A DNA stretch of 37,033 nucleotides from an uncultured Bacteroidales bacterium (GCA_946613135.1 CAMOFI010000008.1:1-37033), one strand, 5' to 3'; positions 6,449 through 23,973 are shown, counted from the first letter of the stretch. Translations and numbers: made by a program. Notes: a model not told the origin generated them from the letters alone.

Positions 6449-6464
6449 GGCACTGTCTTTTCTG

Positions 6465-8204
6465 TTACTTTTTAACGAAGTATAAGAAACCCTGGTGCCT
6501 GTCGAGGCTCAGGCGCAATATGTAGCGTCCACGAGGGAGGTCGGACAGATCGATGGTCTCGGACGGCCCGTTTATGCCAAACACTTTGATTCTGCGACCT
6601 TGAAGGTCAAAAATCTCAGCCTTGAAGACTCCCTCCTGCCCTGTAGCCACAGTAATGCCACCTTTTGTCGGATTGGGCGATATGCTGAAAACCAGACCCT
6701 CTGCTTGGTCAATCCCTTCGGTGCCACCATTGCCAAGGTCGATGAAGAATGCCGTGAACGACGTATCCTGTGTGACTGTTACGGTGCGTGGATTGTCCCA
6801 ATTGCCATCGTTCCATTTGTCAAAGAGACCGTTCTCCATAGCTGTCGCCGTTATGATGACAGTCTCGTCCTCATAATAGCTGCCACTTCCACTAACGATG
6901 CCCAAGAGCGGATTGTCACTCTCCACGCTAACGTTGTATATCGGCTTTTCTGCGAAGAAGGCAGTGAAGGCGGTATCCTGCGTGAGGTACACAGTGCGAG
7001 GATTGTCAGTATTGCCATCGTTCCAGCGTGAGAACATGTAGTGTCCGGTCGGGATAGCCTCAATAGTTACAGGTTCATTTTCAGGATAGTTGCCACTACC
7101 CACTACTGTGCCCCATTCTTCATTATCGGACGACACTGTAAGAACATATCTATCCGAGGCTATAAAAAAAGCCGTGAACGATGTGTCGCTGGATGGGTAG
7201 ACAATGCGCGGGTTGTCGGTATTTCCGTCATTCCAGTGAAGGAACCGGTATCCGGCATTGGCTTCAGCACGGATTGTGTCATACCATTCCTCGGGATACC
7301 AGCCGCCACCGTAAACGCTGCCGTGTATGGCAGAGTCCACGTCGACGTCTATTTTATACTGGTTTACGATAGGCAGATAAAGACCAAAGAAGTTGTCGGG
7401 CCACGGACAATGCCAGTAGCCGCCATTGGCACCGACGGTGTAGAAAGCGACATGTCCTCTGGCATAGTGGCTGCCTAACCAATCGTAATTGACAGGGGCA
7501 TTACAGTCCGGGCCCCATCCGTTCTTGGGAGGGTTGACCGTGCCGACAATCTCGGCATATGACGTCGGTTTATATTCAAACATAAATGCATAGCTGTTTA
7601 ATGCGCTGTCAAAATGTCTCTGATTGCTGTTGCCCGACCCCATGATATAGAAGTCCGAGTCCACATAGACAGGGTTCTTAAAGTAGCTCTCATAGGCATA
7701 TACATATTCTTCAATTTCATTTACACCGCCTTGTTCTATGGGCATATATAGGGGCTGGGCGGTGTCCCAACGCACCGAGTCGACAATCTGCAGATCGATT
7801 GTTACAGCCCATGGCGCCGGCATTCCCTGCCAAGACGAATCCTTATATGTCAGTTGGTAAAGGTACATATACTCCGGAAGCCTGTATGTGTGGATATTGC
7901 CCCATCCATTGGGATTCGATTGGAGCACAAGTGCCACCAAGCCCCTGACTTTCAACGGCTGATTTGCGTATTCCCATTTTGCGATACCTCCCCCTCTATC
8001 ACTTGTCACATATTTCTCTGTCCAACAACTGTCTGACGAACCATACATCGGAACTTGGTCGTACCATTGTGTGTAATAATATTTTTGATAGCGCGATGGT
8101 ATAGTGTCATCAAATGACAATGAAGAATACACCACATTTGCCCTTACCATGAAGCAAACAGGTATCAACAATGCCAAAGCTGATAATCTTTTTAACGATT
8201 CCAT
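6465..8204 (-). CDS. Secreted protein with three InlB-like B-repeats and T9SS type A sorting domain
   Basis: Three FLHWNDGNTDNPR..DTSFTAFF units; C-terminus FSISPNPTKGGITVATG...AEIFDLQGRRIKVF...LPRGRYILRLSLDRHQGFLYFVKK. Confidence 0.85.
   Translation of the reverse strand: MESLKRLSALALLIPVCFMVRANVVYSSLSFDDTIPSRYQKYYYTQWYDQVPMYGSSDSCWTEKYVTSDRGGGIAKWEYANQPLKVRGLVALVLQSNPNGWGNIHTYRLPEYMYLYQLTYKDSSWQGMPAPWAVTIDLQIVDSVRWDTAQPLYMPIEQGGVNEIEEYVYAYESYFKNPVYVDSDFYIMGSGNSNQRHFDSALNSYAFMFEYKPTSYAEIVGTVNPPKNGWGPDCNAPVNYDWLGSHYARGHVAFYTVGANGGYWHCPWPDNFFGLYLPIVNQYKIDVDVDSAIHGSVYGGGWYPEEWYDTIRAEANAGYRFLHWNDGNTDNPRIVYPSSDTSFTAFFIASDRYVLTVSSDNEEWGTVVGSGNYPENEPVTIEAIPTGHYMFSRWNDGNTDNPRTVYLTQDTAFTAFFAEKPIYNVSVESDNPLLGIVSGSGSYYEDETVIITATAMENGLFDKWNDGNWDNPRTVTVTQDTSFTAFFIDLGNGGTEGIDQAEGLVFSISPNPTKGGITVATGQEGVFKAEIFDLQGRRIKVFGINGPSETIDLSDLPRGRYILRLSLDRHQGFLYFVKK
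6745..7365 (-). repeat. Three tandem in-gene repeat units of about 210 nt (70 aa), B-repeat-like
   Basis: Equivalent motif starts on the plus strand at about 6751, 6961 and 7171, spacing exactly 210 nt; diverged at nucleotide level. Confidence 0.8.
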
Positions 8205-8242: not shown

Positions 8243-9805
8243 TTAATTGTCAGTGCATTTTCTTTCAATGTCAAATGCCTCAACAGTAAAGTTTATATAG
8301 TATGTTGGATATGTTATAGAGTCAAAAGGATATCTTTTTTGAATAGGGAGAGACAGTGTAGAAGCTGTTGTTTCAATTGATACGGATGACGCTTTGTCTT
8401 CACTTATGTATGCACAGTTGCTGTTTCCACTAAAGGGTATTTGATAGTCCATCAAAAATAAAGGAGCATTTACCGAATAGGAAATCATGCCCCATGAAAG
8501 GTATTCGGCTCCAATACTGTATGGAGCAACTGACTGTTGATTATATGACGAGGAGTAAAGAATTTGAAAAGAGCTGTAACATTCATTGGTGTTCCATTTG
8601 TTGATTATTGTTGTAGAGTTCGTATTAAAGGCGTCTGAAGTCAATACGGCAGTATATTTATTGGTCGGAAGGTATACAAGTTCTCTGACAACATTATTGC
8701 TCCATTTTTCATATGCACCATCTTGAAACAATAGACCATTGTTGATTCTAAATCTATAAGTATGAATTCCTTGTACATCAGTATTGTCAACACCCAGCGT
8801 GAAAGCAAAGTCATTGTTGGTCATGTTGCATACTCTTAGAGAATCTGAAAACAACAATCCACTCACACCGTCTATATTATTATAACATAAACGGAGTTTA
8901 TTCCAATTTATTGTGTTTATTGTAGTACTTAATTCACGACCACCATAATAGAAGTATGATTCCTTGATGCTGTATCGCATAAAAACATCATGTTTATTGG
9001 TTTTATATCGAGATACCGTAACGACAAAATCATCTGTCCCTGTAATGTCACATAGGATTTCGTTCGAACTTGGATTGAATCGCAAATTATTATCCCATAT
9101 TACAGTACCATTGAAATCCGGATAAAATTTTGTCCTGGTCTGACAGGGTCTTTTTCCCCATGTATGATTAGTTATACCAATAATATCCAATACCGCATTA
9201 TCCCAAAAAGCAGTTTGTTCATACACATGATAACCTCTCCCTTCACCATAGTTTGTCATTCGAAACAGTTCAGATGTTCCTTCAACTTCACGAACCTTTG
9301 CAGTAGCAGAAGACGGAACGTAAGGGTTGTTACTTGCTTCTATAGCATCATCCATCGAGAAAAAACCTGCGAATCCAACGCTGTCAATCTTGTAATAGTA
9401 AGAGCCGTCATGGTTTGCGTATATTCCCTTGTATATTCTTTTAGTTCCACAAAAACAACAAAAATCAGAGGACTGAGTGGTGTCTGACATTTTCCGTAAT
9501 GTAACAAACCTAATGTCATGAACAGTGTATCCAACTGGCAACGAGAAAAGCCTAGCCAACGAACCTGTACTATTATCACGGATAAAGAAATCTGTATATT
9601 CCCAAACTATAGGATTTGTAGTTGGAGCTGAAGGATCTTCTCCGCAACTAGAAATTATGTTGAAGGTGTCGTTATAGTTACGGACAACCGTTTCTGTCGT
9701 GAAATAGGAATTGCTTAACATGGGCTGAATAATTCCAACACTCTGAGCATCCGCTGTTTGCACAAGTGCTCCAAAAATAAAGATATTTAATATAATTTTT
9801 TTCAT
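8243..9805 (-). CDS. Secreted hypothetical protein, no recognisable domain
   Basis: 520 aa with signal peptide MKKIILNIFIFGALVQTADAQ; no T9SS C-terminal domain seen; AT-rich coding. Confidence 0.7.
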   Translation of the reverse strand: MKKIILNIFIFGALVQTADAQSVGIIQPMLSNSYFTTETVVRNYNDTFNIISSCGEDPSAPTTNPIVWEYTDFFIRDNSTGSLARLFSLPVGYTVHDIRFVTLRKMSDTTQSSDFCCFCGTKRIYKGIYANHDGSYYYKIDSVGFAGFFSMDDAIEASNNPYVPSSATAKVREVEGTSELFRMTNYGEGRGYHVYEQTAFWDNAVLDIIGITNHTWGKRPCQTRTKFYPDFNGTVIWDNNLRFNPSSNEILCDITGTDDFVVTVSRYKTNKHDVFMRYSIKESYFYYGGRELSTTINTINWNKLRLCYNNIDGVSGLLFSDSLRVCNMTNNDFAFTLGVDNTDVQGIHTYRFRINNGLLFQDGAYEKWSNNVVRELVYLPTNKYTAVLTSDAFNTNSTTIINKWNTNECYSSFQILYSSSYNQQSVAPYSIGAEYLSWGMISYSVNAPLFLMDYQIPFSGNSNCAYISEDKASSVSIETTASTLSLPIQKRYPFDSITYPTYYINFTVEAFDIERKCTDN

Positions 9806-10280: not shown

Positions 10281-12206
10281 TTAGAACTGGAAGTAGATGA
10301 AGGGCTGCAGATCGGCAGTGATGAACTGATATACTATGAAAACCGCAACGACTGTTGCAAGGAGCATGACCCAAAGGGGGCGTGTGGCGAACCAGAGTCG
10401 ATAGCGGCGTTTGAACCGCGTTGGCAACCAATGGATCAGCATGCCGACAAGGAATATTATAAAGACGTTGCTGTAGGAATGTATGATTTGCGGTATAAGC
10501 TGGAGGTTCCACTCGCCGCCAATGCGACCGACCATGTCGCGGGCAGTCTGCCAAGCCAGTTGGTTAGCCTCGGCGGGAGGAAGATTGGAACCGCTGCGGA
10601 AAAAGAGACGTGTGAAGGTGATAAATGCGAAAGTGAGGAGAATATTCCACGACCGTTCGAGAGTGGCTTTTAGGCGCGGGCGATTAAACTTGTCGCATAG
10701 TGGATTGACAAGGAGATAGCGCAGGGCCGTACCAACAAAGATGATGCCGCTCCATACAACAGCCAGGTTGAAGACTGGGAGAGGCCAAATGACATCGACA
10801 AGGAGAAAGAGGGCGAAGAACGCTTCGGTGACGACAACACGTGCCCTGGGCAGCATGGTTTTCCAACTTTTGTATATGAGTATTCCCGCTCCGTTGAGGG
10901 CTCCCCATGTGATAAAATTGAAACTGGCGCCATGCCACAGGCCTCCAAGGAGCATGGTATCCATATTGTTGACATTGCGGCAATACTCAATGCGATGGCG
11001 TGGAAAGATGAGGTAAATGGCAAGAAGGATGCCCAGCGTGGCGACAACAAGTATCGTGACCCACAGGGTTTGCGCCATAAGGGCTACAACGACAAGCATG
11101 CCGCCAAGTATGAGGTAAGAGGCCAGAGTGGCACGATATTTGCCACCGAGGGGAATGTAAAGGTAATCCTTGAGCCAATTGCTGAGAGATATATGCCAGC
11201 GTTTCCAGAAGCCGGCAGCATTGGTGGCCTTGTAAGGGGAATTGAAGTTCTGGGGAAGGTAAAAGCCCATGAGCATCGCTACACCAATGGCTATATCGGT
11301 GTAGCCAGAGAAATCGGCATAGACCTGCAGAGAATAGACAAAGAGTGCAGAAAGATTCTCGAATCCAGTGAAAAGCAACGGGTTCTCAAAAACCCTGTCG
11401 ACAAAATTGACGGCGAGATAGTCGCTGAGGACGATTTTCTTGATGAGACCGTTGAGAATCCAAAAAACGGCTATGCCAAACTGTCTACGACCGAGAAAAT
11501 ATGGCTTGTAGAGCTGCGGAATGAACTGGTCAGCACGAACTATGGGGCCGGCAACAAGTTGCGGGAAAAAGGTAGTGTAGAAACCAAAGTCAAACACATT
11601 GTTGGCATGGCGAATCTTGCGCTTATAGACATCGACGATATAACTGATGTTCTGGAAAGTGAAGAATGAGATGCCGACAGGAAGGAGTATGACCGATGCA
11701 TCGAACCGCGGCGTGGAGGTGAAATGGTTGGCAAACTTGGCGATGTGGTTGACAACATGTATATTGGAATGAAACATGTTGTTGTATATGTCCGTGAAAA
11801 AGTAGGCATACTTGAAATAGAAAAGTATGACAAGGTTGACAACTATGCCGAAGATGAGCAAACATTTGCGGCGGCGTTGGATGGATAGCTGATTAGTGGA
11901 CATGTCGGCCAAATGGTCGAAGCGGCAACCAAGCCAATAGCCAAAAAAGGTAGAGAATACAAGAAGAAGGACAAACAGGCCACTGGTCTTGTAATAGAAG
12001 AAAAGACTTACAATGAAGAGGTAGCCATTGCGGAAAGTGAGTGGACGCGAAGAGGCGTAAGAATTAGAACTGCATATCCGCCGCAAAAGACAAAGCCCGA
12101 CAAAGACAAGAAGAAAGAAGGCCCAGAAGTTGAACTGGGTAAAGAGTAGTGGATGCTTGGTATCGAAGGTGAACAGGTCACTCAAAAACGTAATAATGTC
12201 TCTCAT
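10281..12206 (-). CDS. MBOAT family membrane O-acyltransferase (AlgI-like)
   Basis: Polytopic; FFPQLVAGPIVRADQFIPQL, VYADFSGYTDIAIGVAMLMGFYLPQNFNSPY, FWKRWHISLSNWLKDYLYIPLGG, LLGGLWHGASFNFITWGALNG. Start chosen at MRDIITFLSD (12206) rather than 12314. Confidence 0.93.
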   Translation of the reverse strand: MRDIITFLSDLFTFDTKHPLLFTQFNFWAFFLLVFVGLCLLRRICSSNSYASSRPLTFRNGYLFIVSLFFYYKTSGLFVLLLVFSTFFGYWLGCRFDHLADMSTNQLSIQRRRKCLLIFGIVVNLVILFYFKYAYFFTDIYNNMFHSNIHVVNHIAKFANHFTSTPRFDASVILLPVGISFFTFQNISYIVDVYKRKIRHANNVFDFGFYTTFFPQLVAGPIVRADQFIPQLYKPYFLGRRQFGIAVFWILNGLIKKIVLSDYLAVNFVDRVFENPLLFTGFENLSALFVYSLQVYADFSGYTDIAIGVAMLMGFYLPQNFNSPYKATNAAGFWKRWHISLSNWLKDYLYIPLGGKYRATLASYLILGGMLVVVALMAQTLWVTILVVATLGILLAIYLIFPRHRIEYCRNVNNMDTMLLGGLWHGASFNFITWGALNGAGILIYKSWKTMLPRARVVVTEAFFALFLLVDVIWPLPVFNLAVVWSGIIFVGTALRYLLVNPLCDKFNRPRLKATLERSWNILLTFAFITFTRLFFRSGSNLPPAEANQLAWQTARDMVGRIGGEWNLQLIPQIIHSYSNVFIIFLVGMLIHWLPTRFKRRYRLWFATRPLWVMLLATVVAVFIVYQFITADLQPFIYFQF

Positions 12207-13761
12207 TCTGGTTTGCGGGTTGGAGGGTTTGAGGATTGGAGAGATCGGATTGCTTATCTGGAGAAGCAGGCATACTGTCGGGGTTTGTCTGCGGCGACGG
12301 TGGCATACCATCACCGGAAGAACGACGATGTCTCTTTCCTCGATAGAGGGGGTTGGGACGACTATTGCGGCTGGGCGACGTGGAAGTGTCGGCTGAGGGC
12401 GAAAGCGGTGCCTTCAGCTTAGAGGGCGGCAGGGGCGGCTTGAGACTGACAACGGCTTCGAAAATGGCGTTGTGGAGCATGTCGGCAAGGAGCTGGTAAC
12501 CTTTCCGCGTGAAATGGACTTTGTCGCGCTGGGCAAGACTTTGGCCCTGCCACTGGCTCATGGAGGTGAGGCCTCCCATGATGGTAAACTGGTCCCATAC
12601 CATGCCTCCGCATGCGGAAGCAATACGAATGAACGCATCACGCACAAGCGGACCGTTGTTGTTTACACTGTATTTGCGTCTGACAAGACGGTAGCTGTCG
12701 TTGTTGGTAATGAAGATAAAGGCACAGTCAGGACTGATTCTGCGTATGGAGTCGACAAGCTGGAGATAGCGTTTTTGGAACACTACTGTGTCGAAATTGG
12801 GACCCGAGGCATCGTTGATACCTATACCGAAAATGACAAGGTCGGGCTGCAGCAATTGGAGATCGGTAGTAAAATAAGGACACTTGTTGATGTAATCGGC
12901 TGTAGAGGCTCCGTTTACGCCAATAGAATGGTAGGTGAGGCCTGGCTGTTGGTTCTGGAGGCAAAGCCCGGTGAGGGCAAAGGCCTGACCACTGTCGCAG
13001 GGAAGGACTATACGAAATGAGTCAACAGGAAACTGGCTATGATAGATATAGCGGCGACGGAGTGTATCTACAGATGTGGGATGCAGGATGGTGGTGTCGG
13101 GTAACAGCTTTATGAGAGGCACGACACTGCCGGTGGGCTTGCCGAGGAGAATGATGGTGCGCGTGTCGAAGTTGATTTGCGGTTCGCTAAGGGTGATGCC
13201 GATTTCGGCAGCGCTGTCGGCAGCAGTGACGGCTATGCCGCACAGGCCAAGGAGCTGGTCGGGCTCTTTATACACATTGCGCGTAAGGATGAGAGGGTAT
13301 GTCCGAGAGACTTTATAGTCAAAAGGGTTGTTGCATTTGACGGCGGCAGAATAGGGGAAGAGCATACCGCGCGAAGCAACAGGGAAATTATGGTTGTCGC
13401 AATCCGGGTTGGCAATGGCGTTTGCAGCGCAAAGCAGCAGGTTGCGTCGAAGCTGATGGGGAAACGTGCCGCCCTGGACATGCGAGGCTCCTATCTGAAG
13501 AATGTTGACATTGCCCTCTCCCGACCGAAGAAGTCTGTAGAATTTGTCGGCAAAACGTCTCATCTGAGAACTGTCACCACAGAAAATCAGATGATTATCT
13601 TGATAGTTAATAAAGGAATATGATGTGTCGACAGATACAAAAAGCGCACTGTCGTCGACCACATAAGGACGGGGGCATGGCACGTTGGTTTGAGCTTGCC
13701 CACATGAGGCAAACAGGAACGCAAAGAGCATGAGACAACATGTATGTAGTATGAAACGCAT
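12178..13761 (-). CDS. SGNH/GDSL-type hydrolase/acyltransferase, putative lipoprotein, with Pro/Ser-rich C-terminal tail
   Basis: Lipobox-like LLFASCGQ; block I ILQIGASHVQGG (GAS variant), block III VIFGIGIND, block V RDKVHFTRKGYQLLADML. Confidence 0.8.
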   Translation of the reverse strand: MRFILHTCCLMLFAFLFASCGQAQTNVPCPRPYVVDDSALFVSVDTSYSFINYQDNHLIFCGDSSQMRRFADKFYRLLRSGEGNVNILQIGASHVQGGTFPHQLRRNLLLCAANAIANPDCDNHNFPVASRGMLFPYSAAVKCNNPFDYKVSRTYPLILTRNVYKEPDQLLGLCGIAVTAADSAAEIGITLSEPQINFDTRTIILLGKPTGSVVPLIKLLPDTTILHPTSVDTLRRRYIYHSQFPVDSFRIVLPCDSGQAFALTGLCLQNQQPGLTYHSIGVNGASTADYINKCPYFTTDLQLLQPDLVIFGIGINDASGPNFDTVVFQKRYLQLVDSIRRISPDCAFIFITNNDSYRLVRRKYSVNNNGPLVRDAFIRIASACGGMVWDQFTIMGGLTSMSQWQGQSLAQRDKVHFTRKGYQLLADMLHNAIFEAVVSLKPPLPPSKLKAPLSPSADTSTSPSRNSRPNPLYRGKRHRRSSGDGMPPSPQTNPDSMPASPDKQSDLSNPQTLQPANQNERHYYVFE

Positions 13762-13764
13762 ATA

Positions 13765-15162
13765 TTATCGTATTTTTTCAATTTGGTCGGGATACTGCTG
13801 ACGCAGCAGGTAGAGTTGGTAGAATTTGAGGAAGGCATCGCTGAAAAGGTTGCCCATCAGCTCGGCGCCTTTGTGGGTAAAGTGGATATAATCGCTGCCC
13901 GCAAGCCCGTTGTCGTGCCAGGCAGACATCGAACCTTGTCCACCCATAGCATCGTAGATACTCCAAAATGCTGCATTGTGGGCATTGGCTGTCTGGCGGA
14001 GAGAATTGATGACGTCATGAAGCCGCTTGTAGGTAGTGGAGCTGCTACCCATATCGGACGGCCCGATAAAGAGGATTGCTGCATCGGGGCACGTGGAGTG
14101 CAGATAATCTATCTGTTTGGCCATCTGGGAACAATAGTCCTGGATTGCCTTGTCGGTTCGGAGGTATGGAACAGAATTGCCACCGAACTGCATTATAATC
14201 ATACCAACATCAATGAGCTTGTATGACTCGGCAAGTTGGTTGAACTTGACTTTGCCGAACTGGTGGCCCGAAGTGCTGCGCATGCCTATGTTGTCGACAG
14301 CCACGCCATAGCCGTCGTCGACAAGGATTCCGTATATGTCGGCATTGCCGTTTATGGTGATACGCGCAGACGACGAGACCGTGTCGAGCTGCCAGGCTAT
14401 AAGTCCTATCCCAGGCTCGGAAACAGATGTCTTGAACGAGCCCGACCCTGCTCGGTCGGTCATGCTGACAGAGAGCGGACCGGGGCGGTTGTTGTATAGT
14501 ACACGCAGCATAGAGAATCGGCTGACGCGAGGGGTTGCGTACATGCCTTTGGAGGCAGAAAGCGAAAGCGATGCCTGCCCCGACACATGCCAAGAGCGCA
14601 GCATGGGACCATAATGTCCATTGCGTACAAATGCACTGTCGCCCCACGTGGTCTGGGCAAAGAGCGAACCCGAAGCATTCTGGTTGAAGGAGTAGGTGGG
14701 AACGGGCTGCCTCAAGGGGAGCAGTCCTGGTCCTCCGCCGCCAAACACTTCCTGCATGCGCTCGCGTATGGTGAGCGTGATGCGGTCCTGCTCGATTTGG
14801 GAGTCGCCATAGTGGAGGATTCGTACAATACGATGCTGGCGTTGCGCCTGACAGAGCGACGAGAAGAGATTATCGAAGTAGGCAGGGTCGTCGTTGGGAA
14901 GCCAAAAACGGTACTGTGAGGAAAAGAGTGTCTGGTAGCAGTCGTTGATAGAGTCTATGGCTTGGCTGAGGTCTCGCTTTGGCGCGACAGCCAAAAGGGA
15001 ATCAATATCCTTGGCCTTTTCGCGCACAAGGACTTTGTGGAGGGTAGGAAAACGAAACTCTATGCCGGCAAAACGGATACCGTCGGCAGGAAAAACAACA
15101 CACAGTAGCGCGAGGAGCGCCACTGTGATGATGAAAAATTTGAGTGTGTCTGTCAGTTTCAC
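13765..15162 (-). CDS. SGNH/GDSL-type hydrolase/acyltransferase, N-terminally membrane anchored
   Basis: GTG start overlapping the lpxD stop; TM anchor FFIITVALLALLCVVF; RILHYGDSQIEQDRIT, IIMQFGGNSVPY, GSDYIHFTHKGAELMGNLFSDAF. Confidence 0.85.
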   Translation of the reverse strand: MKLTDTLKFFIITVALLALLCVVFPADGIRFAGIEFRFPTLHKVLVREKAKDIDSLLAVAPKRDLSQAIDSINDCYQTLFSSQYRFWLPNDDPAYFDNLFSSLCQAQRQHRIVRILHYGDSQIEQDRITLTIRERMQEVFGGGGPGLLPLRQPVPTYSFNQNASGSLFAQTTWGDSAFVRNGHYGPMLRSWHVSGQASLSLSASKGMYATPRVSRFSMLRVLYNNRPGPLSVSMTDRAGSGSFKTSVSEPGIGLIAWQLDTVSSSARITINGNADIYGILVDDGYGVAVDNIGMRSTSGHQFGKVKFNQLAESYKLIDVGMIIMQFGGNSVPYLRTDKAIQDYCSQMAKQIDYLHSTCPDAAILFIGPSDMGSSSTTYKRLHDVINSLRQTANAHNAAFWSIYDAMGGQGSMSAWHDNGLAGSDYIHFTHKGAELMGNLFSDAFLKFYQLYLLRQQYPDQIEKIR

Positions 15163-16193
15163 TCTGCGTTAAGCTCCTTCAATATTTTTTCGATTTGGTC
15201 GACACGTTTGTAGAGCTGGTCCAAATTGCGCTCGTAGATGTAGGTCTTGCGCTGCTTGATAGCATCGGTGGCTGGCGACCCGAGGATGGTGACATTGTCG
15301 GGGAAATTGCGTGTGACGCCCGACTGGGCGGCAATGGTCACATTGTTGCCAACCTCTATGTGTCCGACAATGCCTACCTGCCCGGCAATAATACAATGGC
15401 TACCCACTTTGCCCGATCCTGCTATTCCGCTCTGCGAGGCCATCACAGTATCGTGTCCAACAACAACATTGTGGGCCACCTGACATAGGTTGTCGAGCTT
15501 GACACCACGGTGGATGACTGTGGAGCCAAGCGTGGCACGGTCTATGGTGGTATTGGCTCCTATCTCGACATCATCCTCGATGACGACGTTGCCAATTTGG
15601 TCGATCTTTTGATAATTGCCGTCAGCCGTAGGCGCAAAGCCGAAACCATCTGCGCCGATAACAGCACCGGAATGGATTATGCAGCGTTTGCCGACAACTA
15701 TGTTCTGATAAATACGAACACCTGCAAAGAGAGTCGTGCCTTCTCCTATGGACGAATTGTCGCCAACATAGGTCTGAGGATAGATCTTGGCACCGTCAGC
15801 AATAATTGCATTCTCGCCAATATAGGCAAAGGGGCCAATATAGCAATTCTCGCCAATGGTGGCACTGGGTGAGATATAGGCCAGCTTGTCGACGCCTTTC
15901 TTGTCGAGCTGCATCTCGTTATATTTCTTGAGCAGAGAGGCAAAGGCCAGGTACGGGTCGGCAACACGGATGAGCGAAGTCTTGACAGGATGCTCGGGTT
16001 GGAAATCTTTGCTGACAATTACGGCTGTAGCCTTCGTATCATATATATAATTGGTATACTTGCTGTTGGCCAAAAACGAAAGACCTCCTGGTTCGCCCTC
16101 TTCAATTTTGCACAATTTCCATACTTCAGCATTGGCATCGCCTTCAACTGTTCCTCCCAAAAGGGCAGATATCTGAGTGAGAATGAATTTCAT
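15159..16193 (-). CDS. lpxD: UDP-3-O-acylglucosamine N-acyltransferase LpxD
   Basis: Hexapeptide repeats; GADGFGFAPTADGNYQKIDQIGNVVIEDDVEIGANTTIDRATLGSTVIHRGVKLDNLCQVAHNVVVGHDT; N-terminal LpxD domain. Confidence 0.95.
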   Translation of the reverse strand: MKFILTQISALLGGTVEGDANAEVWKLCKIEEGEPGGLSFLANSKYTNYIYDTKATAVIVSKDFQPEHPVKTSLIRVADPYLAFASLLKKYNEMQLDKKGVDKLAYISPSATIGENCYIGPFAYIGENAIIADGAKIYPQTYVGDNSSIGEGTTLFAGVRIYQNIVVGKRCIIHSGAVIGADGFGFAPTADGNYQKIDQIGNVVIEDDVEIGANTTIDRATLGSTVIHRGVKLDNLCQVAHNVVVGHDTVMASQSGIAGSGKVGSHCIIAGQVGIVGHIEVGNNVTIAAQSGVTRNFPDNVTILGSPATDAIKQRKTYIYERNLDQLYKRVDQIEKILKELNAE

Positions 16194-16268: not shown

Positions 16269-16967
16269 TCAATTAAATTGTATATATCCATATAATTTTG
16301 CAACTGTTTCTTCATCAATAAGATTTACCAGCAGAAGATCGGTCATGTTTGTCAAGTTGTTCCCCTGTTGGCGAAATTGCACAATGGCTTTTGCCTGATA
16401 GTAGTCGATATACGGGTGACGTCTGAGCTGGTCTATGGTTGCACTATTGATGTGGATTTTGTCGACAGCGCCGGTATCAACAGTAATATAAGGCAAAATC
16501 TGGTTGTAGCGTTCGTCGGTCATGCCATAGACTTCGCGCAACTGTTCTGTGCGCACATAGCCTCCCAACAGGGATCTGTATTTGACAATGCGCGAGGCAA
16601 ACACAGGCCCGATGCCATAGAGGAGCTGCAGGGTGGCGGTGTCGGCTGTGTTGAGCTCAACGACAACATTGCTGAAATGCTGCTTACGGACAGCAGTGTC
16701 AAACTCTGAAGATTGGAAACGTTTGGTCGACGGAGGTGTGGAACGGCGTGGCTGACGATAGAACTGATGGTTAGAATATGCATGCTGTTCAATGCTATCG
16801 CCAAAGAGATCCACAAGTTCCTCTAATGTCGCATTGTCGTTATGCGTGCCTGACGCAGACTTTGACTTGCCGCGATGCGGGACAAAGACAAGTGCGACCA
16901 ATGCCAGCAAAAGAATGCAAGAAAGGACAATATAGCCGCGCCACTGGCCTCGCGTAGGTGTGTTCAT
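16269..16967 (-). CDS. Helix-hairpin-helix (ComEA-like) protein with N-terminal TM anchor
   Basis: VELNTADTATLQLLYGIGPVFASRIVKYRSLLGGYVRTEQLREVYGM and a second HhH INSATIDQLRRHPYIDYYQAKAIVQFRQQ. Confidence 0.88.
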   Translation of the reverse strand: MNTPTRGQWRGYIVLSCILLLALVALVFVPHRGKSKSASGTHNDNATLEELVDLFGDSIEQHAYSNHQFYRQPRRSTPPSTKRFQSSEFDTAVRKQHFSNVVVELNTADTATLQLLYGIGPVFASRIVKYRSLLGGYVRTEQLREVYGMTDERYNQILPYITVDTGAVDKIHINSATIDQLRRHPYIDYYQAKAIVQFRQQGNNLTNMTDLLLVNLIDEETVAKLYGYIQFN

Positions 16968-16972
16968 GGGTT

Positions 16973-17554
16973 TTATTCGTCAATAGTCATCGTTCCTCGC
17001 TGATGCAGTATCTGTGGGGCGACAAATTCGTCATCACTCTCGATGCCGTCACCGTAAGTGATACGCTGTCCGTTGACCGACTTGACGGGGTCGTGAGAGA
17101 AAATGCGATGTTCCGCCGAGTTCCACACAAGGCTTTCGAGATAGGACGTGTCGCCAGAACGATAGTCGATGACGACGACATTGTTGCGAGCCTCGATAAT
17201 CTTCTTTTCGTCGTAGGATATCGCATAATCGGCTCTGATATTGGCAACGGTACGGTTAGGGCCTTCCAGAATCTGCATCTCGAATCCGTCAGGATATACT
17301 GTTCTGCGCTCGGGACTACCATAGGTAAGTACCCTGTCGGCCGAAAGTTTCATCTGTACCTTCCCTTCTACACTGCGTATGGCACTAACGGAGTCTAAAG
17401 CCTGAAGAGGCACATCCTTATGGTCGAAAAAAAGGATTTTGTCCATATCGTTACGACAGGCAGCGAGAAGGAAAAGCAGACAAAAGCAAGGAAGCGTACT
17501 GAATGTACGCCTCCTCGTTGGTGTATGGGTATGGATGTTGATCCGCTTGGACAT
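16973..17554 (-). CDS. lptC: LPS export protein LptC
   Basis: Lipobox-like LLFLLAACRN; LptC-like SADRVLTYGSPERRTVYPDGFEMQI...ANIRADYAISYDEKKIIEARNNVVVID...ESLVWNSAEHRIFSHDPVKSV. Confidence 0.88.
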   Translation of the reverse strand: MSKRINIHTHTPTRRRTFSTLPCFCLLFLLAACRNDMDKILFFDHKDVPLQALDSVSAIRSVEGKVQMKLSADRVLTYGSPERRTVYPDGFEMQILEGPNRTVANIRADYAISYDEKKIIEARNNVVVIDYRSGDTSYLESLVWNSAEHRIFSHDPVKSVNGQRITYGDGIESDDEFVAPQILHQRGTMTIDE

Positions 17555-17572: not shown

Positions 17573-18892
17573 TTATTTTCTGGTACGGACGGTTGTAGTA
17601 ACTCCTATCCAACCAGGTACGGTGTAACTGTTGCCGTCGATAAGGTCCTGCATGAAAGCCTCATCCTGTTTGGGGAAGTGGCCAGAGTAGGAGTTGATGA
17701 GGCGCTGAGCGGCTTCGACATTTTCAGGCGAATCATCTATACTGATGGCTTTGCGTGCGGCATCGACAGCAGCCCAGTAGGCTGAACGTCCTCCCATATT
17801 GTCGCTGACGGCACGTGCACCTTTGGCGTAGAGCTGCGAGATAAGGCGGTAAGGTTCGCCCTTGGTGCCGTCCATGTCGGCAGCACGGTTGTAGGAAGCG
17901 CGGGCAGCTGAGTAGTTGTTGCTGTTGGCGTAGCAAAGACCCTGGAGGATGTACATATTGTATTTATCCTTCTCCTCTGCACCCTGCAGTGCATCGTTTA
18001 CATACTTGGCAGCCTCGCTGAATTTGTCCTTATTGTAGCACATCTGAGCCATGAGGTAAGCCGTAGAGGGTGTGGGCTCTAGAGAGTGAAGCTTCTCGGT
18101 TGCGGCAAAGAAGAGCTCGGTATCCATACATTTCTTCTTGCGAAGTATCGTAGTGATTTTTTTCAGAAGGGCCACATCGTTTGAGTTCGCATTGAACTTC
18201 TTGGTGTATATCTTCACAAGCTCCTCGCAGGAAGCAAACGGTGAGAAATGGTTTTCGACATTGACAAGCACATTATGGATTTCTGTACGCTTGGCACTGT
18301 CTGTAGTGTTTTGGAGCAATGCGTCAAGCGCATCGGAGGCTATATCGTAGTTGTCTACGATAAGGGTGGTGTCGGCATTGCCGGCAGTGACGTATTTGAC
18401 TGTTGCATCGAAGTAGCGCTCAATGAAGGCGACTTCGAGGTCGCTGGCTCCCAGCGACATTGCCTCAGCATAGAGTGCATAGTACTCTTTGAGTGCTGCA
18501 TTGCCACGCAGCTGCTCCATGTCGTAGGCCTTGCGTGCCGTCACCTCTGCGGCCTCGCCAAAGAACTGGATACGAAGATCGTACATCCTCATAAGCTCAT
18601 CAACGATAGCTTTGCGTTCAGCAGGATCCTTGGTGGCATTGAACTTGGACTTGAGAATGGTGACGCCACGAATGTAGAGGTTCTTGTTGTTGGCGGGACA
18701 TTTTTCAAGACACTCTTTCCAGGGCTCGTAAGCCTCGATGTACTGTTTGTTCTTGAACGCTTCGCGATAGAGGAAGGTGTTGGTGACACAGCTGACACTG
18801 TCTTCGGGCGTAGCTCCCCATTTCTGAGCCGAAACAGAGAGCACCGATATGGTCATTAACAATCCGAGAGTTGCAAATTTGAGTGTTTTCAT
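17573..18892 (-). CDS. Secreted tetratricopeptide repeat protein
   Basis: Signal peptide and TPR-like units (EAFKNKQYIEAYEPWKECLEKCPANN; GLCYANSNNYSAARASYNRAADMDG). Confidence 0.85.
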   Translation of the reverse strand: MKTLKFATLGLLMTISVLSVSAQKWGATPEDSVSCVTNTFLYREAFKNKQYIEAYEPWKECLEKCPANNKNLYIRGVTILKSKFNATKDPAERKAIVDELMRMYDLRIQFFGEAAEVTARKAYDMEQLRGNAALKEYYALYAEAMSLGASDLEVAFIERYFDATVKYVTAGNADTTLIVDNYDIASDALDALLQNTTDSAKRTEIHNVLVNVENHFSPFASCEELVKIYTKKFNANSNDVALLKKITTILRKKKCMDTELFFAATEKLHSLEPTPSTAYLMAQMCYNKDKFSEAAKYVNDALQGAEEKDKYNMYILQGLCYANSNNYSAARASYNRAADMDGTKGEPYRLISQLYAKGARAVSDNMGGRSAYWAAVDAARKAISIDDSPENVEAAQRLINSYSGHFPKQDEAFMQDLIDGNSYTVPGWIGVTTTVRTRK

Positions 18893-19004
18893 CGTGTATG
18901 TTATTTTTAGTTATTTACTTCATTAGTTACCATGCCGAGGGATAAATTGCTTTTTTATGATTTTTTATATGTTGGCATATTCGGCAGGCCCTTATTGGTG
19001 ATGT

Positions 19005-20354
19005 TTAGTTAAACTTGCGTTTTACAAACCAGCTTTCGCAGCTGCCTACAGAAATGCCTATGCTGAAGAGGTCGCGACGCAAGAGGTCGACAGTGCCAAA
19101 CGAAGAGTAGGAGGCTGAAATGTTGAGAACCGAACGCCCCTTGCGCATAGGAAGGGAACATCCGAGACCCACTCCCCACTCGTCAAGTTTGTACTCAGTA
19201 CCGTCGATATGAGCCATCTGCATACGACCCGCCTCGTAGTGAGCGCCGGCAGAGAAAGTGATACGTCTAAGATAAGAAGAAGAATTACGGTCGCCCAGCA
19301 GCTGAAGACCCACAGCATACCTCTGGCTTCCTCCATATCGCAACGGGCTGTCGCCAAAGATAGAGACGCTGCTGCCCTCTGTATATTTGAGACCGTTCCA
19401 CGGCATGAAAGTGGCATCCACTGCAATCAGCCACAAGTCGTTGTGCTGGAACGAGAGGCCTATGCCGGTAGTGAAAGGCTGTTCGAGAGTGCTTTCAAAT
19501 TCGCTGCTGCTGCCTGATGTGGGGAAGACCGTGTCGCGCATAAACTCGGTAGCGGCATTTGTTACGAAAGTATAGACAAGTGCATTATCTCTCACTGTCA
19601 TTGTCCTGTGGGGCCTGATGTTGACTCCGACACCAAAAGAATAATGCTCGCCCACAGGCTGGTCGTACTGGAGTCCAAGATCAAAGGTGAGATTTTTGAT
19701 ATATGTATCTTTCTGACGGCGAGAATCCATAAAATAAGTCGTGTCGCTTGCCACAAAATCATATGTCATTGCTCTTGTCAAGCTGCCATACATGAAGTTG
19801 AGGTTGAAACCCGCACGCAAGTGTGCCTTGGCAGGGTCTGTACCACCGAGAATATTGAAGCCGTGACCCCAAAACAGCTGAGCCACTCCACCTGTTCCCT
19901 CATAGATGGTCTTTACCTCGCCACCAGGATTGATGGCGGAGGTCTGTGTAGACTGGTAGTTGACATCCGACAAAGGCATCACGCCTAAAGAAGTCTTCCA
20001 CCAGTTTGTCAATGGGAAGGCGACATTGAGGTGGCCAAGCTGCCCGTCGGCATCAAACTGCGAGCCAGTGTTGTCGCGGAGGGTGCTCATATCGATAGAA
20101 AGACCCATGTCAAAGACAAATGTTTCTTTGTTGATGGCCGCATACGAAGCAGGGTTGAAGGGATTTATCATGTTATTGTACGAGCGGGTGTAGACTACAC
20201 CTCCCATACTCGCTGCGATGGGTGCATTGTAAGGCATATTGCTGAAACCAACGCCATATTGCGAATACGGTGAGTTTATGCCGTTCTGTGCCTCAACAGG
20301 CATAACGACAACAGCAAGCAACAGCGCCAAAATAATTCTAATATATTTTCTCAC
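19005..20354 (-). CDS. Outer membrane beta-barrel protein (FadL/PorV-like hypothetical)
   Basis: Signal peptide; SPYSQYGVGFSNMPYNAPIAASMGGVVYTRSYNNMINPFNPASYAAI; beta-barrel-like C-terminal half. Confidence 0.8.
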   Translation of the reverse strand: MRKYIRIILALLLAVVVMPVEAQNGINSPYSQYGVGFSNMPYNAPIAASMGGVVYTRSYNNMINPFNPASYAAINKETFVFDMGLSIDMSTLRDNTGSQFDADGQLGHLNVAFPLTNWWKTSLGVMPLSDVNYQSTQTSAINPGGEVKTIYEGTGGVAQLFWGHGFNILGGTDPAKAHLRAGFNLNFMYGSLTRAMTYDFVASDTTYFMDSRRQKDTYIKNLTFDLGLQYDQPVGEHYSFGVGVNIRPHRTMTVRDNALVYTFVTNAATEFMRDTVFPTSGSSSEFESTLEQPFTTGIGLSFQHNDLWLIAVDATFMPWNGLKYTEGSSVSIFGDSPLRYGGSQRYAVGLQLLGDRNSSSYLRRITFSAGAHYEAGRMQMAHIDGTEYKLDEWGVGLGCSLPMRKGRSVLNISASYSSFGTVDLLRRDLFSIGISVGSCESWFVKRKFN

Positions 20355-20387
20355 AGGTTTAAAGTTTTTCGATAGTTTATCAAGACA

Positions 20388-21134
20388 CTACACATTCATT
20401 CCCAATATTTTATCCAAGCCTATAAAAAGAAGGTTTGAATTTGCAAAGTTCGGAAAAAATAATTGTTTGGCAAAAAAAACAGCATCACCGCCTGTTAAAA
20501 AAAGTTTAAGACCTGGATATAGCCGACTATACGAATCAGCAAAACCCTGTATTTCAAAAAGCAGCGCTTTGAGAACGCCAGAAACTATAGAGTCTCTTGT
20601 CGACCTGCCAGTGAGTGGCAAACCAGCAACTCCGGAATGCTCTGCCTCGGTGAGTTCCACCAATGGAAGCGATGCCGTATAATCGTGGAGCGAGCGCAGA
20701 CGCATCTGTATGCCAGGCAGTATTGAACCGCCACGATAACAATTATTGTTGTCCAATATGTCTATTGTTATACAGCTTCCCGCATCTACGACCATCAGCG
20801 GACTGGCCGGCGACAGCTCGCGGGCACCGACAACGGCTGCCACACGGTCCATACCGAGTGTTTGAGGTGTTTCGTAATCGATATCGATAGGAAGCCTGGA
20901 ACGACTCGTAAGCAAATGGAACGAGCTATATGCTTGAGGTGGCAACAGACGTTCGAAGTCGGGCATTTTCCCGACGACAGAAGCAATGGTGGCTACAACT
21001 TGATACTGTTCGCATTTGTCGCCTATGGCAAGCGACTCAAGGTTGGCGGCAACAAATGTGGCAATAATGGAGCCGTTCTCGGCCACTGCCGCTTTTGTAC
21101 GTGTATTGCCGATGTCGAGAAGAAGATGTGCCAT
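20388..21134 (-). CDS. coaX: Type III pantothenate kinase
   Basis: LLLDIGNTRTKAAV, LGMDRVAAVVGARE, LMVVDAGSCITIDIL, GGSILPGIQMR, LFLTGGDA. Confidence 0.95.
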   Translation of the reverse strand: MAHLLLDIGNTRTKAAVAENGSIIATFVAANLESLAIGDKCEQYQVVATIASVVGKMPDFERLLPPQAYSSFHLLTSRSRLPIDIDYETPQTLGMDRVAAVVGARELSPASPLMVVDAGSCITIDILDNNNCYRGGSILPGIQMRLRSLHDYTASLPLVELTEAEHSGVAGLPLTGRSTRDSIVSGVLKALLFEIQGFADSYSRLYPGLKLFLTGGDAVFFAKQLFFPNFANSNLLFIGLDKILGMNV

Positions 21135-21142
21135 TGATCTGT

Positions 21143-21772
21143 TCAGTTATACATATTCATTGCACGGTCGACTCCAAGAGTCACGAAGGTCTTTATAGCG
21201 TCCACGGCCCTGTCGAGAGCAGGCTCCAGCAGGGCCTGCTCCTCATTGCTGAAACGGCCAAGCACATAATCGATCTGATGACCTTGGCCAAAATTGTTGC
21301 CCACGCCAATACGAAGACGGCAATAGCTGGACGTATGCAGCATCTGCTCTATATTGGCCAATCCATTGTGTCCGCCTCCGGAGCCTTGTTTTTTCATCCT
21401 TATCTTACCTACCGGCAACGCAATATCGTCGACAACCACAAGCAGGTTTTCCAGCGGTATCTTCTCTTTTTGAAGCCAGTATTGCACTGCCTTGCCACTC
21501 AGGTTCATATATGTTGTCGGGCGAATCAAGACCAGGGAGCGCCCTCTCCACTTGGCCTCTGCCCTATAGGCATGGCGGTCAAGCACGTAGGTAGGCTTTT
21601 CTCCTTCGGCTGTGCACGCTTTCAGCAGTCGATCGACGACCATAAAGCCACTGTTGTGGCGCGTACCCTCATACTCAGCCCCAATGTTGCCAAGTCCTGC
21701 TATAAGGTATTTCATTGCTGTATCTTCTTCTTGCTTTTTCCCCCTGTGAAACAGTGAATCGAAAATTCCCAT
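21143..21772 (-). CDS. pth: Peptidyl-tRNA hydrolase (start may be 21715, MKYLIAGLGN)
   Basis: YLIAGLGNIGAEYEGTRHNSGFMVVDRLL, LIRPTTYMNLSGKAV, VVVDDIALPVGKIRMKKQGSGGGHNGLANIEQML. Confidence 0.95.
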   Translation of the reverse strand: MGIFDSLFHRGKKQEEDTAMKYLIAGLGNIGAEYEGTRHNSGFMVVDRLLKACTAEGEKPTYVLDRHAYRAEAKWRGRSLVLIRPTTYMNLSGKAVQYWLQKEKIPLENLLVVVDDIALPVGKIRMKKQGSGGGHNGLANIEQMLHTSSYCRLRIGVGNNFGQGHQIDYVLGRFSNEEQALLEPALDRAVDAIKTFVTLGVDRAMNMYN

Positions 21773-21774
21773 AC

Positions 21775-23973
21775 TTATTTGCCTCCCACAAGCGTCATCT
21801 CGTCTATCAGATGGCCGGCACCGGCATATTTGTCAATGATGAAGAGGCAGTAGCGAATGTCGAGACAGATATTGCGACAATAGTCGGGGTCGAAAAGCAA
21901 GTCGCTCATTGTTCCTTCCCAGCAGCGGTCAAAATTCAGTCCTATCAGACGGCCGTCAGCGTTGAGCACAGGGCTTCCGCTGTTGCCGCCGGTGGTGTGG
22001 TTGGTAGCGATGAAACAAACCGGCATCTGGGAGTTTGTCGAGGTGCGCACACTTGTAACCACACGGTCGGGAAGGACAGTGACGGTTGTGTCGTCATGCG
22101 ACTCGACGACACCATATCGGCCATAATCCTTAAGGGCATACAGCTCTTTGAGTTTTGGTTCGACAACATAGTCATAGATGTCCGGATTCTCCTTTTCCAT
22201 GATACCTTGCAGGGTGCTATAGGGTTTATAGTAGACGCCGTCTCGAGGACGGAAACCCTCAACATGGCCATAGGCGACACGAAGGGTCAGATTGGCATCA
22301 GGGAAGAAGTTGACCTCAGGTTGCATTTCCATCATACCCTTGACATAGGTGCGCATAAGCCGCTGTATGTCGGCATAGGCACGGCGGTAGGTGGCCAGTT
22401 TCTGCGCATCGTATGCCATAGTGTAGGCCTGGTCGAAAAGTGCCACGCCTGGGTCGCTCTTCAGCTTCTTGGAACTCTTGGCGGTATATCCGTCAAGAAA
22501 CTTCTGGAGTTTGCTCTCGTTATTGAGGATAGATCCGTCGTATATCTTCTCAAGCTTGGCCTCGACAGCTTTTTTGTCCATACCGCTTTCGGCCAGGTAT
22601 GGGGCGTATCCGGCTTGCCACATATAGAGAAATGTCTCGACAAAAATGGTACGATCCACTACCGTGTGTTGTTCAAAATCGCTGAAATATTTGGCATTGG
22701 CCTCTTTCAGTTTGTTTACTGTCGATACGATACTTACGTCGTCATCTTCGTTAGACAGCTGACGGTAAGTTTGTGCACGCAGCATGAAGTCGCTGGCTCT
22801 TACAGCTTCGCCGAAGTAGGTTAATTCCAAGTCGACCGGCGTGAGTTTTTCATAAGCCTCGTGCAACTGAGCAAGGACGTTGTAGTACTGAGGCTTGTCG
22901 TTGGCCCACAGCTGGAAGCGGCGCTCGAAGTCGCGTTTTTTCGCCACACCATCCAGCCTGTTGATACCCAAGGTCTCACCTTGCCACTTCTTCCATCCGT
23001 TGGCAATCGATGCCACCTTTGAGGCATATTTCAGACGCTGTGCAGCACTTTGGTTCATAGCGTTGTTGTAGTGTTTGAGGCGTATGGTACGCAGGTCGAT
23101 GCGGATAGGATTGTCAAGATTGGCAATTAGATTGACAGCGTCGCTCGTAACGTATCGTTGAGTCGTTCCAGGGTAACCGAAAACAAATGTAAAGTCGCCC
23201 TCCTTCACTCCGTCGAGCGATATCTCGAGATGCTTGAGGGGCTTGTAAGGACGATTATTTTTTGAATAGTTGGCCGGTTTATTGTCGGCATTGGCATAGA
23301 CGCGGAACATCGAGAAGTCGCCAGTATGGCGAGGCCACATCCAGTTGTCGGTGTCGCCACCGAATTTGCCTATGTTCGAGGGCGGAGCTCCCACCAGCCT
23401 GACATCGGTAAAAACCTCATTGATATACATAAAATATTGGTTGCCATAGTAAAATGGCTTAATGATAGCTTTATAGTGTGTTCCTTCAACGGCACGAGCA
23501 GTAATCTTTTTAATGTTGCTCTCCACTATTGCCTCGCGTTCGCCAGGAGTAGTCTCTGCCGATACACCTTCGAGCACCTGAGCGGTGACATCCTCCATAC
23601 GCACCAGTCGCGTGGCCGTAAGTCCGGGGCATGGCAGTTCCTGTTCACGATCCATTGCCCAGAAACCGTTGGTAAGGTAGTCGTGTTCTACGGTACTGTG
23701 CGACGTGATATAGCTATATCCACAGTGGTGGTTGGTGAGGAACAGACCTTCGGCACTTACATATTCTCCCGTGCAGCCCTGGTTGAAAAGCAGTATTGCG
23801 TCCTTGAGGCAGGCATTGTTCACGTCATAGATATCCTTTGCTGAGATGCGCATTCCTGCTTTCTGCATATCAGCCTCGTTGCGGCCAAGAAGCATGGGTA
23901 TCCACATGCCCTCATCAGCCATAGCATTGATTGTCAGTGCTGCCAACACAAGCAGCATCATAAGTCTTTTCAT
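21775..23973 (-). CDS. S46 family dipeptidyl peptidase, DPP11-like (Asp/Glu-specific predicted)
   Basis: LTNHHCGY (His), GDTDNWMWPRHTGDFSMFRVYA (Asp), TTGGNSGSPVLNADGRLIGLNFDRCWEG (Ser, and Arg 18 residues later). Confidence 0.93.
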   Translation of the reverse strand: MKRLMMLLVLAALTINAMADEGMWIPMLLGRNEADMQKAGMRISAKDIYDVNNACLKDAILLFNQGCTGEYVSAEGLFLTNHHCGYSYITSHSTVEHDYLTNGFWAMDREQELPCPGLTATRLVRMEDVTAQVLEGVSAETTPGEREAIVESNIKKITARAVEGTHYKAIIKPFYYGNQYFMYINEVFTDVRLVGAPPSNIGKFGGDTDNWMWPRHTGDFSMFRVYANADNKPANYSKNNRPYKPLKHLEISLDGVKEGDFTFVFGYPGTTQRYVTSDAVNLIANLDNPIRIDLRTIRLKHYNNAMNQSAAQRLKYASKVASIANGWKKWQGETLGINRLDGVAKKRDFERRFQLWANDKPQYYNVLAQLHEAYEKLTPVDLELTYFGEAVRASDFMLRAQTYRQLSNEDDDVSIVSTVNKLKEANAKYFSDFEQHTVVDRTIFVETFLYMWQAGYAPYLAESGMDKKAVEAKLEKIYDGSILNNESKLQKFLDGYTAKSSKKLKSDPGVALFDQAYTMAYDAQKLATYRRAYADIQRLMRTYVKGMMEMQPEVNFFPDANLTLRVAYGHVEGFRPRDGVYYKPYSTLQGIMEKENPDIYDYVVEPKLKELYALKDYGRYGVVESHDDTTVTVLPDRVVTSVRTSTNSQMPVCFIATNHTTGGNSGSPVLNADGRLIGLNFDRCWEGTMSDLLFDPDYCRNICLDIRYCLFIIDKYAGAGHLIDEMTLVGGK

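Follow-up and report, generated by a model that had tools for sequence, protein, structure and literature searches.

Introduction

In the O-acetyltransferase PatA, the tyrosine of a FXYXXF motif carries acetyl taken from acetyl-CoA, a histidine is required, and the SGNH protein PatB accepts acetyl from an acetyl-tyrosine peptide (Anderson et al. 2025, PMC12148441). PatB was later recognised as the true transferase behind the 2005 name 'ape2' (PMC6174289). Lytic transglycosylases require that the C6 hydroxyl of MurNAc be free, and O-acetylation blocks them (PMC6174289). In Bacteroides and Porphyromonas, the peptidoglycan O-acetylation (OAP) cluster consists of ape1b-ape1c-pat, in that order (Weadge et al. 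2005, PMC1199599). The carrier species include Bacteroides thetaiotaomicron, whose measured level of peptidoglycan O-acetylation was 27%, B. fragilis, with 69%, and Porphyromonas gingivalis; the link from cluster to peptidoglycan was drawn by correlation, not by mutation (PMC1199599).

Here we describe a locus of an uncultured Bacteroidales bacterium in which three genes, most likely an OAP cluster, stand directly behind the lipid A gene lpxD.

Gene content and packing of the locus

The window, i.e. the whole stretch of DNA that was analysed (37,033 nt), belongs to a draft genome that is 75% complete in 140 contigs. The named relatives found were Bacteroidales metagenome bins from ruminants. 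By direct reading of the sequence, lpxD, SGNH1, SGNH2 and MBOAT are four tightly packed minus-strand ORFs. The features of the directon are:

10281..12206, minus strand: MBOAT acyltransferase, PatA-like, 641 aa (PF03062, 61.7 bits; His425 and FIYFQF invariant)
12178..13761, minus strand: SGNH2, exported Ape1-family SGNH protein (PF13472; closest to Ape1 structures in profile and fold searches)
13765..15162, minus strand: SGNH1, membrane-anchored Ape1-family SGNH protein (conserved columns; Ape1 best by profile and fold)
15159..16193, minus strand: lpxD, UDP-3-O-acyl-glucosamine N-acyltransferase (TIGR01853, 361.6 bits; single copy)
16269..16967, minus strand: helix-hairpin-helix (HHH, ComEA-type) protein, upstream of lpxD (PF12836)
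16973..17554, minus strand: lptC, LPS export protein, upstream of lpxD (TIGR04409, over cut-off)
17573..23973, minus strand: remaining directon, with TPR protein, outer-membrane protein (OMP), coaX, pth and Dpp7-family dipeptidyl-peptidase

At the lpxD/SGNH1 junction, GTGA forms a 4-nt overlap in which the GTG start of SGNH1 overlaps the lpxD stop. SGNH1 and SGNH2 are separated by a 3-nt gap (TAA-TAT-ATG), and the MBOAT ATG lies within the last 29 nt of SGNH2. These junctions, read directly, are those given in a preliminary description of the locus. A GTG upstream of the MBOAT ATG, at 12314, is a possible start, but the family alignment begins at the ATG. The packed unit proved longer than previously described: dpp7-pth-coaX-OMP-TPR-lptC-HHH lies upstream of lpxD in the same orientation, its genes separated by short gaps, and the module closes the directon (...lptC, HHH, lpxD, then the three acyl-transfer genes). 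Within the upstream part, coaX encodes type III pantothenate kinase and pth peptidyl-tRNA hydrolase. No RNA elements or tRNAs were found in the window, and a promoter and terminator scan gave signal near background.

SGNH1 and SGNH2 as predicted relatives of Ape1

Both SGNH proteins are, by homology and predicted fold rather than by literal motif, relatives of the peptidoglycan O-acetylesterase Ape1. Each matched PF13472 (GDSL/SGNH), and PF13472/PF00657 were the only Pfam families found. Neisseria Ape1 (4k3u) was matched by the SGNH1 family profile at 7e-33 and by the SGNH2 profile at 1e-32, with Campylobacter Ape1 (8gkd, 8gld) next for both families at 1e-17 to 1e-28. For SGNH2, the 4k3u match lay mainly in the C-terminal half and the 8gkd/8gld matches spanned the whole protein. 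The alignment to Ape1 has a common motif, MGG.SM..W....D..HF. AlphaFold models built from the family alignments (pLDDT 87.8 for SGNH1, 83.5 for SGNH2) both found the Ape1 structures as best match (about 1e-24; TM-score by target 0.74-0.84); the next structural family came at about 1e-9, roughly 15 orders of magnitude weaker. In both models, as in Ape1, a beta domain is inserted between block I and block II. The catalytic and oxyanion residues are kept in SGNH1 (Ser121, Asn329, Asp424, His427) and in SGNH2 (Ser93, Asn316, Asp413, His416).

The literal Ape motifs, which come from a small 2005 sequence set, gave a mixed picture. Motif I, GDS(H/F), reads GDSQ in SGNH1 and GASH in SGNH2, departures that count against an OAP assignment; at motif VII, Dx(V/T)H, SGNH1 misses with DYIH and SGNH2 fits with DKVH. 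SGNH2 falls outside the definition of Ape1c, having 223 residues, including a beta-rich region, between S93 and N316. We file the module as an OAP-kind cluster because of its gene order, its MBOAT motif and the SGNH fold, and do not file SGNH2 as Ape1c. The block II Gly is replaced by Ser in SGNH1 of the source species and three close relatives and is Gly in other members of the genus; for PatB, sources disagree on whether this Gly is kept or replaced by Ser/Asn (PMC12148441 vs PMC6174289).

The N-terminal membrane anchor previously proposed for one SGNH protein was recovered in SGNH1 as a helix (residues 3-23 of the model), and a hydrophobic N terminus is kept in its relatives. The lipobox-like signal ascribed to SGNH2 fared less well. 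It is present in the source species, and 14 of 33 orthologues have a lipobox-like Cys, but the signal peptide of the others is of the ordinary type, mostly with AQ at its end; on that count SGNH2 was rejected as a conserved lipoprotein. The C-terminal tail of SGNH2 (residues about 463-527, low model confidence) is proline-rich and disordered.

No recognisable PatB entry was found among the profile and fold matches of SGNH1 and SGNH2. Neither protein matched PF16822 (ALGX) or PF14286 (DHHW), and on this an AlgJ/AlgX-type SGNH identity was rejected; genome-wide searches with ALGX and DHHW gave no match, but none in controls either, and so are no evidence of absence. A further GDSL gene that could serve as a PatB candidate was not found with PF13472 in the source genome or in a 100%-complete congener (G002).

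The MBOAT protein carries a PatA-type tail

In the MBOAT protein, His425 is invariant in 31 aligned sequences. The C terminus, FIYFQF (residues 636-641, with Tyr638), is invariant in the family alignment and fits FXYXXF. The F-W-R/N-R-W-H motif appears as F333-W-K-R-W-H338, with Lys in the third place and the other positions kept. DltB was the nearest solved relative by profile and also the nearest NCBIfam model, below cut-off. Given the FIYFQF tail, the His and the chemistry of PatA, a relay from acetyl-CoA to MBOAT Tyr638, to an SGNH Ser and on to a glycan is, by analogy, very likely. The MBOAT-SGNH envelope acyl-transfer module recognised at the outset is borne out.

lpxD is a housekeeping gene in a conserved operon

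The lpxD product scored 361.6 bits against the TIGR01853 equivalog (cut-off 242.5) and retains the catalytic His, which we take from E. coli LpxD to be His241. There was one full match in the source genome (75% complete), and lpxD is single-copy in nearly all relatives. In the source genome lpxC-lpxA lies on a different contig, and the lpxD loci retrieved for other genera of the family contained no lpxC. The earlier premise that lpxD sits with lpxC-fabZ/lpxA, stated for many Bacteroidales, fails in this family, and a move away from lpxC-lpxA in this species only was rejected on the same evidence. Gene order from pth to lpxD is kept across the genus and in its sister genus (g5), and the position of the HHH gene is kept in g5 and much of the genus. 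In g5, pth-coaX-OMP-TPR-lptC-HHH-lpxD occurs without the module, and SGNH1-SGNH2-MBOAT is on another contig. Taken together, the module-free order in g5, the single copy of lpxD and the lack of a neighbouring lpxC in the family suggest that the place of lpxD is old and that the module moved.

lpxD is an ordinary, single-copy housekeeping gene of lipid A synthesis, and its operon (pth-coaX-...-lptC-lpxD) is conserved. It had been proposed to be either a dedicated paralogue or a relocated housekeeping copy; the housekeeping copy stands, while both the paralogue (no second lpxD in the 75%-complete genome) and a relocation in this species only are rejected. Nothing relevant emerged from literature searches that paired MBOAT with LPS in Bacteroidetes or looked for lpxD operons in Bacteroidales.

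The lpxD-module linkage is limited to one genus

lpxD adjoins SGNH1 in all 31 genomes sampled in the genus, and all four genes are together in 28 of them; the exceptions have MBOAT elsewhere (G065) or SGNH2-MBOAT elsewhere (G080, G085). Of 34 genus loci, 19 show the -4 overlap of lpxD and SGNH1 and 8 the -29 overlap of SGNH2 and MBOAT; SGNH1 identity goes down to about 43% within the genus. The four-gene packing is more than chance and is conserved genus-wide. Four genus loci have a glycosyltransferase-like gene between lpxD and SGNH1 (two of these pass the PMT_2 cut-off and the other two are homologues), and about 13 have a sulfatase-fold, LtaS-like gene after MBOAT. Such neighbours also fit a role on LPS or another glycan and in that respect speak against an OAP cluster.

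Outside the genus, 28 family members from other genera had an unambiguous SGNH1, and in none of them was lpxD beside it. Across the order, 129 genomes were sampled and 66 had SGNH1; only in the window's own genome did lpxD adjoin it (thus 0 of about 65 others), the nearest other lpxD-SGNH1 distances being 9 and 11 kb. The lpxD linkage is limited to the genus, and this lack of co-occurrence refutes a functional lpxD link outside it. Conservation of the four-gene order, which the preliminary description put up for testing, holds within the genus but not beyond. SGNH1-SGNH2-MBOAT itself was found in this order repeatedly across many families of the order. At lpxD, the module is operon-like across the genus; the system itself is of an established kind, and its location is new.

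A lytic transglycosylase gene precedes the module elsewhere

The immediate upstream neighbour of SGNH1 is a same-strand MltD-type lytic transglycosylase gene (SLT and LysM) in 30 genomes spread over 17 families, with the loci of one genome counted once. Within the family this arrangement occurs in genera g3, g4, g6, g8, g9 and g11; the window's genome has an MltD relative on another contig (C20). Since six genera of the family share it, the MltD-SGNH1 order is probably the ancestral state, and the position at lpxD the derived one. This neighbour evidence, order-wide in extent, is new relative to the literature that we found on the cluster. The module also has the OAP gene order, with two adjacent Ape-family SGNH genes upstream of MBOAT on the same strand. 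SGNH family, published gene order and MltD neighbour are three independent lines that point to peptidoglycan as the glycan.

Discussion

Our preferred reading is that SGNH1-SGNH2-MBOAT is a Bacteroidales OAP cluster working by the acetyl relay proposed above, and that it settled behind the lpxD operon; we give this explanation as a whole a probability of roughly three in four. MBOAT His425 would move acetyl from cytoplasmic acetyl-CoA to Tyr638 of the FIYFQF tail on the periplasmic side. Ser121 of anchored SGNH1 would then take up the acetyl and transfer it to peptidoglycan, at the N-acetylmuramic acid C6 hydroxyl, and exported SGNH2 would remove acetyl as an Ape1-like esterase or act as a second transferase. 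The expected outcome is control of lytic transglycosylases and of lysozyme sensitivity. O-acetylation bears on lysozyme resistance and on the muropeptides that reach the host from gut bacteria. The module may have settled behind pth-coaX-...-lptC-lpxD in the ancestor of the genus, in which case joint transcription with the LPS genes, and translational coupling to them, are now probable.

Which protein transfers the acetyl group is the question on which this cluster departs from the PatA-PatB scheme, and two Ape1-type proteins without a PatB-type gene make it testable in Bacteroidales. With no PatB in the cluster and no other GDSL gene, one Ape1-type protein must accept the acyl group; as Ape1 proteins are esterases, this transfer step is putative and counts against an OAP assignment. 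SGNH2 is absent from four near-complete genomes (G103, G207, G212, G022) in which SGNH1 and MBOAT are still adjacent, which suggests that SGNH1 is the partner that MBOAT requires. MBOAT proteins of genera g11 and g9 that lack the Tyr tail were never paired with an intact SGNH1 triad. Both patterns favour SGNH1. Against it as sole partner, G080 and G085 have a SGNH2-MBOAT pair with no adjoining SGNH1, and against it as transferase, g11 also has loci where the Tyr tail is present and SGNH1 is degenerate. On balance we lean slightly towards anchored SGNH1 as the transferase and SGNH2 as esterase or helper. A bolder version, PatB-free O-acetylation by an anchored Ape1-fold esterase turned transferase and wired by translational coupling into the lptC-lpxD operon, is tentative and falls somewhat short of an even chance.

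The adjacency to lpxD could also have a function, as an addition to the OAP reading and not a competitor: regulated coupling would keep O-acetylation proportional to LPS synthesis and transport. The order pth-coaX-OMP-TPR-lptC-(HHH)-lpxD-SGNH1 and the overlap are indeed kept despite the divergence of SGNH1, but three genus genomes have MBOAT or SGNH2-MBOAT away from lpxD, and operon order can persist by vertical descent alone. We regard such coupling as possible and hold it more loosely than the PatB-free scheme. The missing PatB and this possible link of wall acetylation to LPS synthesis are where the remaining interest of the locus lies.

Two other substrates were weighed against peptidoglycan. 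O-acetylation of capsule, exopolysaccharide or another surface glycan, as done by AlgI/AlgJ/AlgX for alginate, draws on the fact that MBOAT-SGNH chemistry serves many glycans (PMC12148441) and on the carbohydrate-binding-like beta domain inserted in the SGNH proteins. We consider it unlikely: Ape1 with the same inserted domain works on peptidoglycan, ALGX and DHHW did not match, and no capsule or glycosyltransferase cluster lies directly around the module in the window. O-acylation of lipid A, LPS core or O-antigen with lpxD as a functional part is less probable still, for although genus-wide adjacency, the -4 coupling, lptC further upstream and the PMT_2 and LtaS-like neighbours speak for it, the adjacency ends with the genus, both SGNH proteins have peptidoglycan esterases as their nearest solved relatives, the module elsewhere accompanies a lytic transglycosylase, and LpxD works in the cytoplasm on UDP-sugars with no periplasmic partner required. 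The reading as a lipid A acylation system is not supported. The LPS/lipid A or surface-glycan substrate of the preliminary description gives way to peptidoglycan on Ape1-type SGNH proteins, OAP gene order, MltD context and a genus-only lpxD link; lipid A acylation was a tempting misreading of what is most likely a peptidoglycan O-acetylation cluster.

Comparison with known systems

The closest match is the OAP cluster (PMC1199599), with the same gene order of anchored Ape1-like SGNH, second Ape1-like SGNH and MBOAT, and with like fold, catalytic residues and bacterial order; this comparison was made with the published description of the cluster. P. gingivalis Ape1 is likewise predicted to have a membrane anchor (PMC1199599), as SGNH1 has. 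The published cluster lies behind a cation-efflux gene whereas the module here lies behind lpxD, its motif I differs from that of both SGNH proteins here, and Ape1c is defined by lacking a roughly 100-residue segment after motif I where SGNH2 has a long beta-rich one. DltB-DltX-DltD shares the nearest solved MBOAT and an acyl-tyrosine shuttle; here, however, the shuttle tail is fused to MBOAT, the unit has no DltA/DltC carrier, and the SGNH proteins showed no relation to DltD at the search sensitivity applied. AlgI-AlgJ-AlgX (alginate) and WssH/WssI (cellulose) are alike in MBOAT and SGNH chemistry and in acyl transfer across the membrane, but differ in their SGNH families and in the exopolysaccharide genes, of which there are none near this module. 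PatA-PatB-Ape1 of Neisseria and Campylobacter agrees in the MBOAT FXYXXF tail and invariant His, in two SGNH partners and in the Ape1 fold; in our locus both SGNH proteins are Ape1-type, with none of PatB type, and the order is reversed, with the SGNH genes first.

Degenerate SGNH1 and MBOAT orthologues in related genera

We found that SGNH1 orthologues lying next to MBOAT at nine loci in two other genera of the family (g11 and g9) have lost the catalytic Ser, Asn or Asp-His (loci L150, L152, L153, L155, L158, L159, L161, L163 and L164). In six of these loci with degenerate SGNH1 the C-terminal Tyr motif was also missing from MBOAT, and in others it was present. A motif-less MBOAT paired with an intact SGNH1 triad was found in none of the g11 and g9 loci.

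The SGNH2 protein of the window ends in a proline/serine-rich tail of approximately 65 residues, which is predicted to be disordered (12178-12390) and whose DNA overlaps the start of MBOAT.

Variation in gene content around the module

In four members of the window's genus, a gene resembling PMT_2-type (GT39/ArnT-like) membrane glycosyltransferases lies between lpxD and SGNH1:

L033, 10357-11901
L035, 9928-11640
L055, 6699-8501
L057, 6328-8103

The gene immediately past MBOAT encodes a sulfatase-fold, LtaS-like membrane protein at two loci of the genus (listed below) and at about 11 others:

L033, 16828-18819
L043, 14553-16559

An LtaS-like homologue was also observed in genus g2, approximately 2 kb downstream of lpxD (L061, L062), and SGNH1 was not found in the sampled genomes of that genus. 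Two members of the window's genus carry a second SGNH1 and MBOAT copy without lpxD (L086, on contig C24 of genome G045, and contig C22 of G090); the L086 copy lacks SGNH2.

Elsewhere in the window, the following was identified:

4766-8204, minus strand, BspA-type leucine-rich-repeat protein and adjoining InlB B-repeat protein

In the neighbour of the BspA-type protein, the InlB B-repeats are divergent and a C-terminal sorting domain for type IX secretion is present. Open reading frames of 520 aa (8243-9805) and 702 aa (24070-26178) had no Pfam matches.

lpxC of the same genome

On another contig of the window's own genome (C44; locus L002, 544-2283), lpxA comes after lpxC, which encodes a 309-aa protein. 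Many Bacteroidales have a bifunctional LpxC/FabZ, whereas this lpxC is without the fused FabZ domain.
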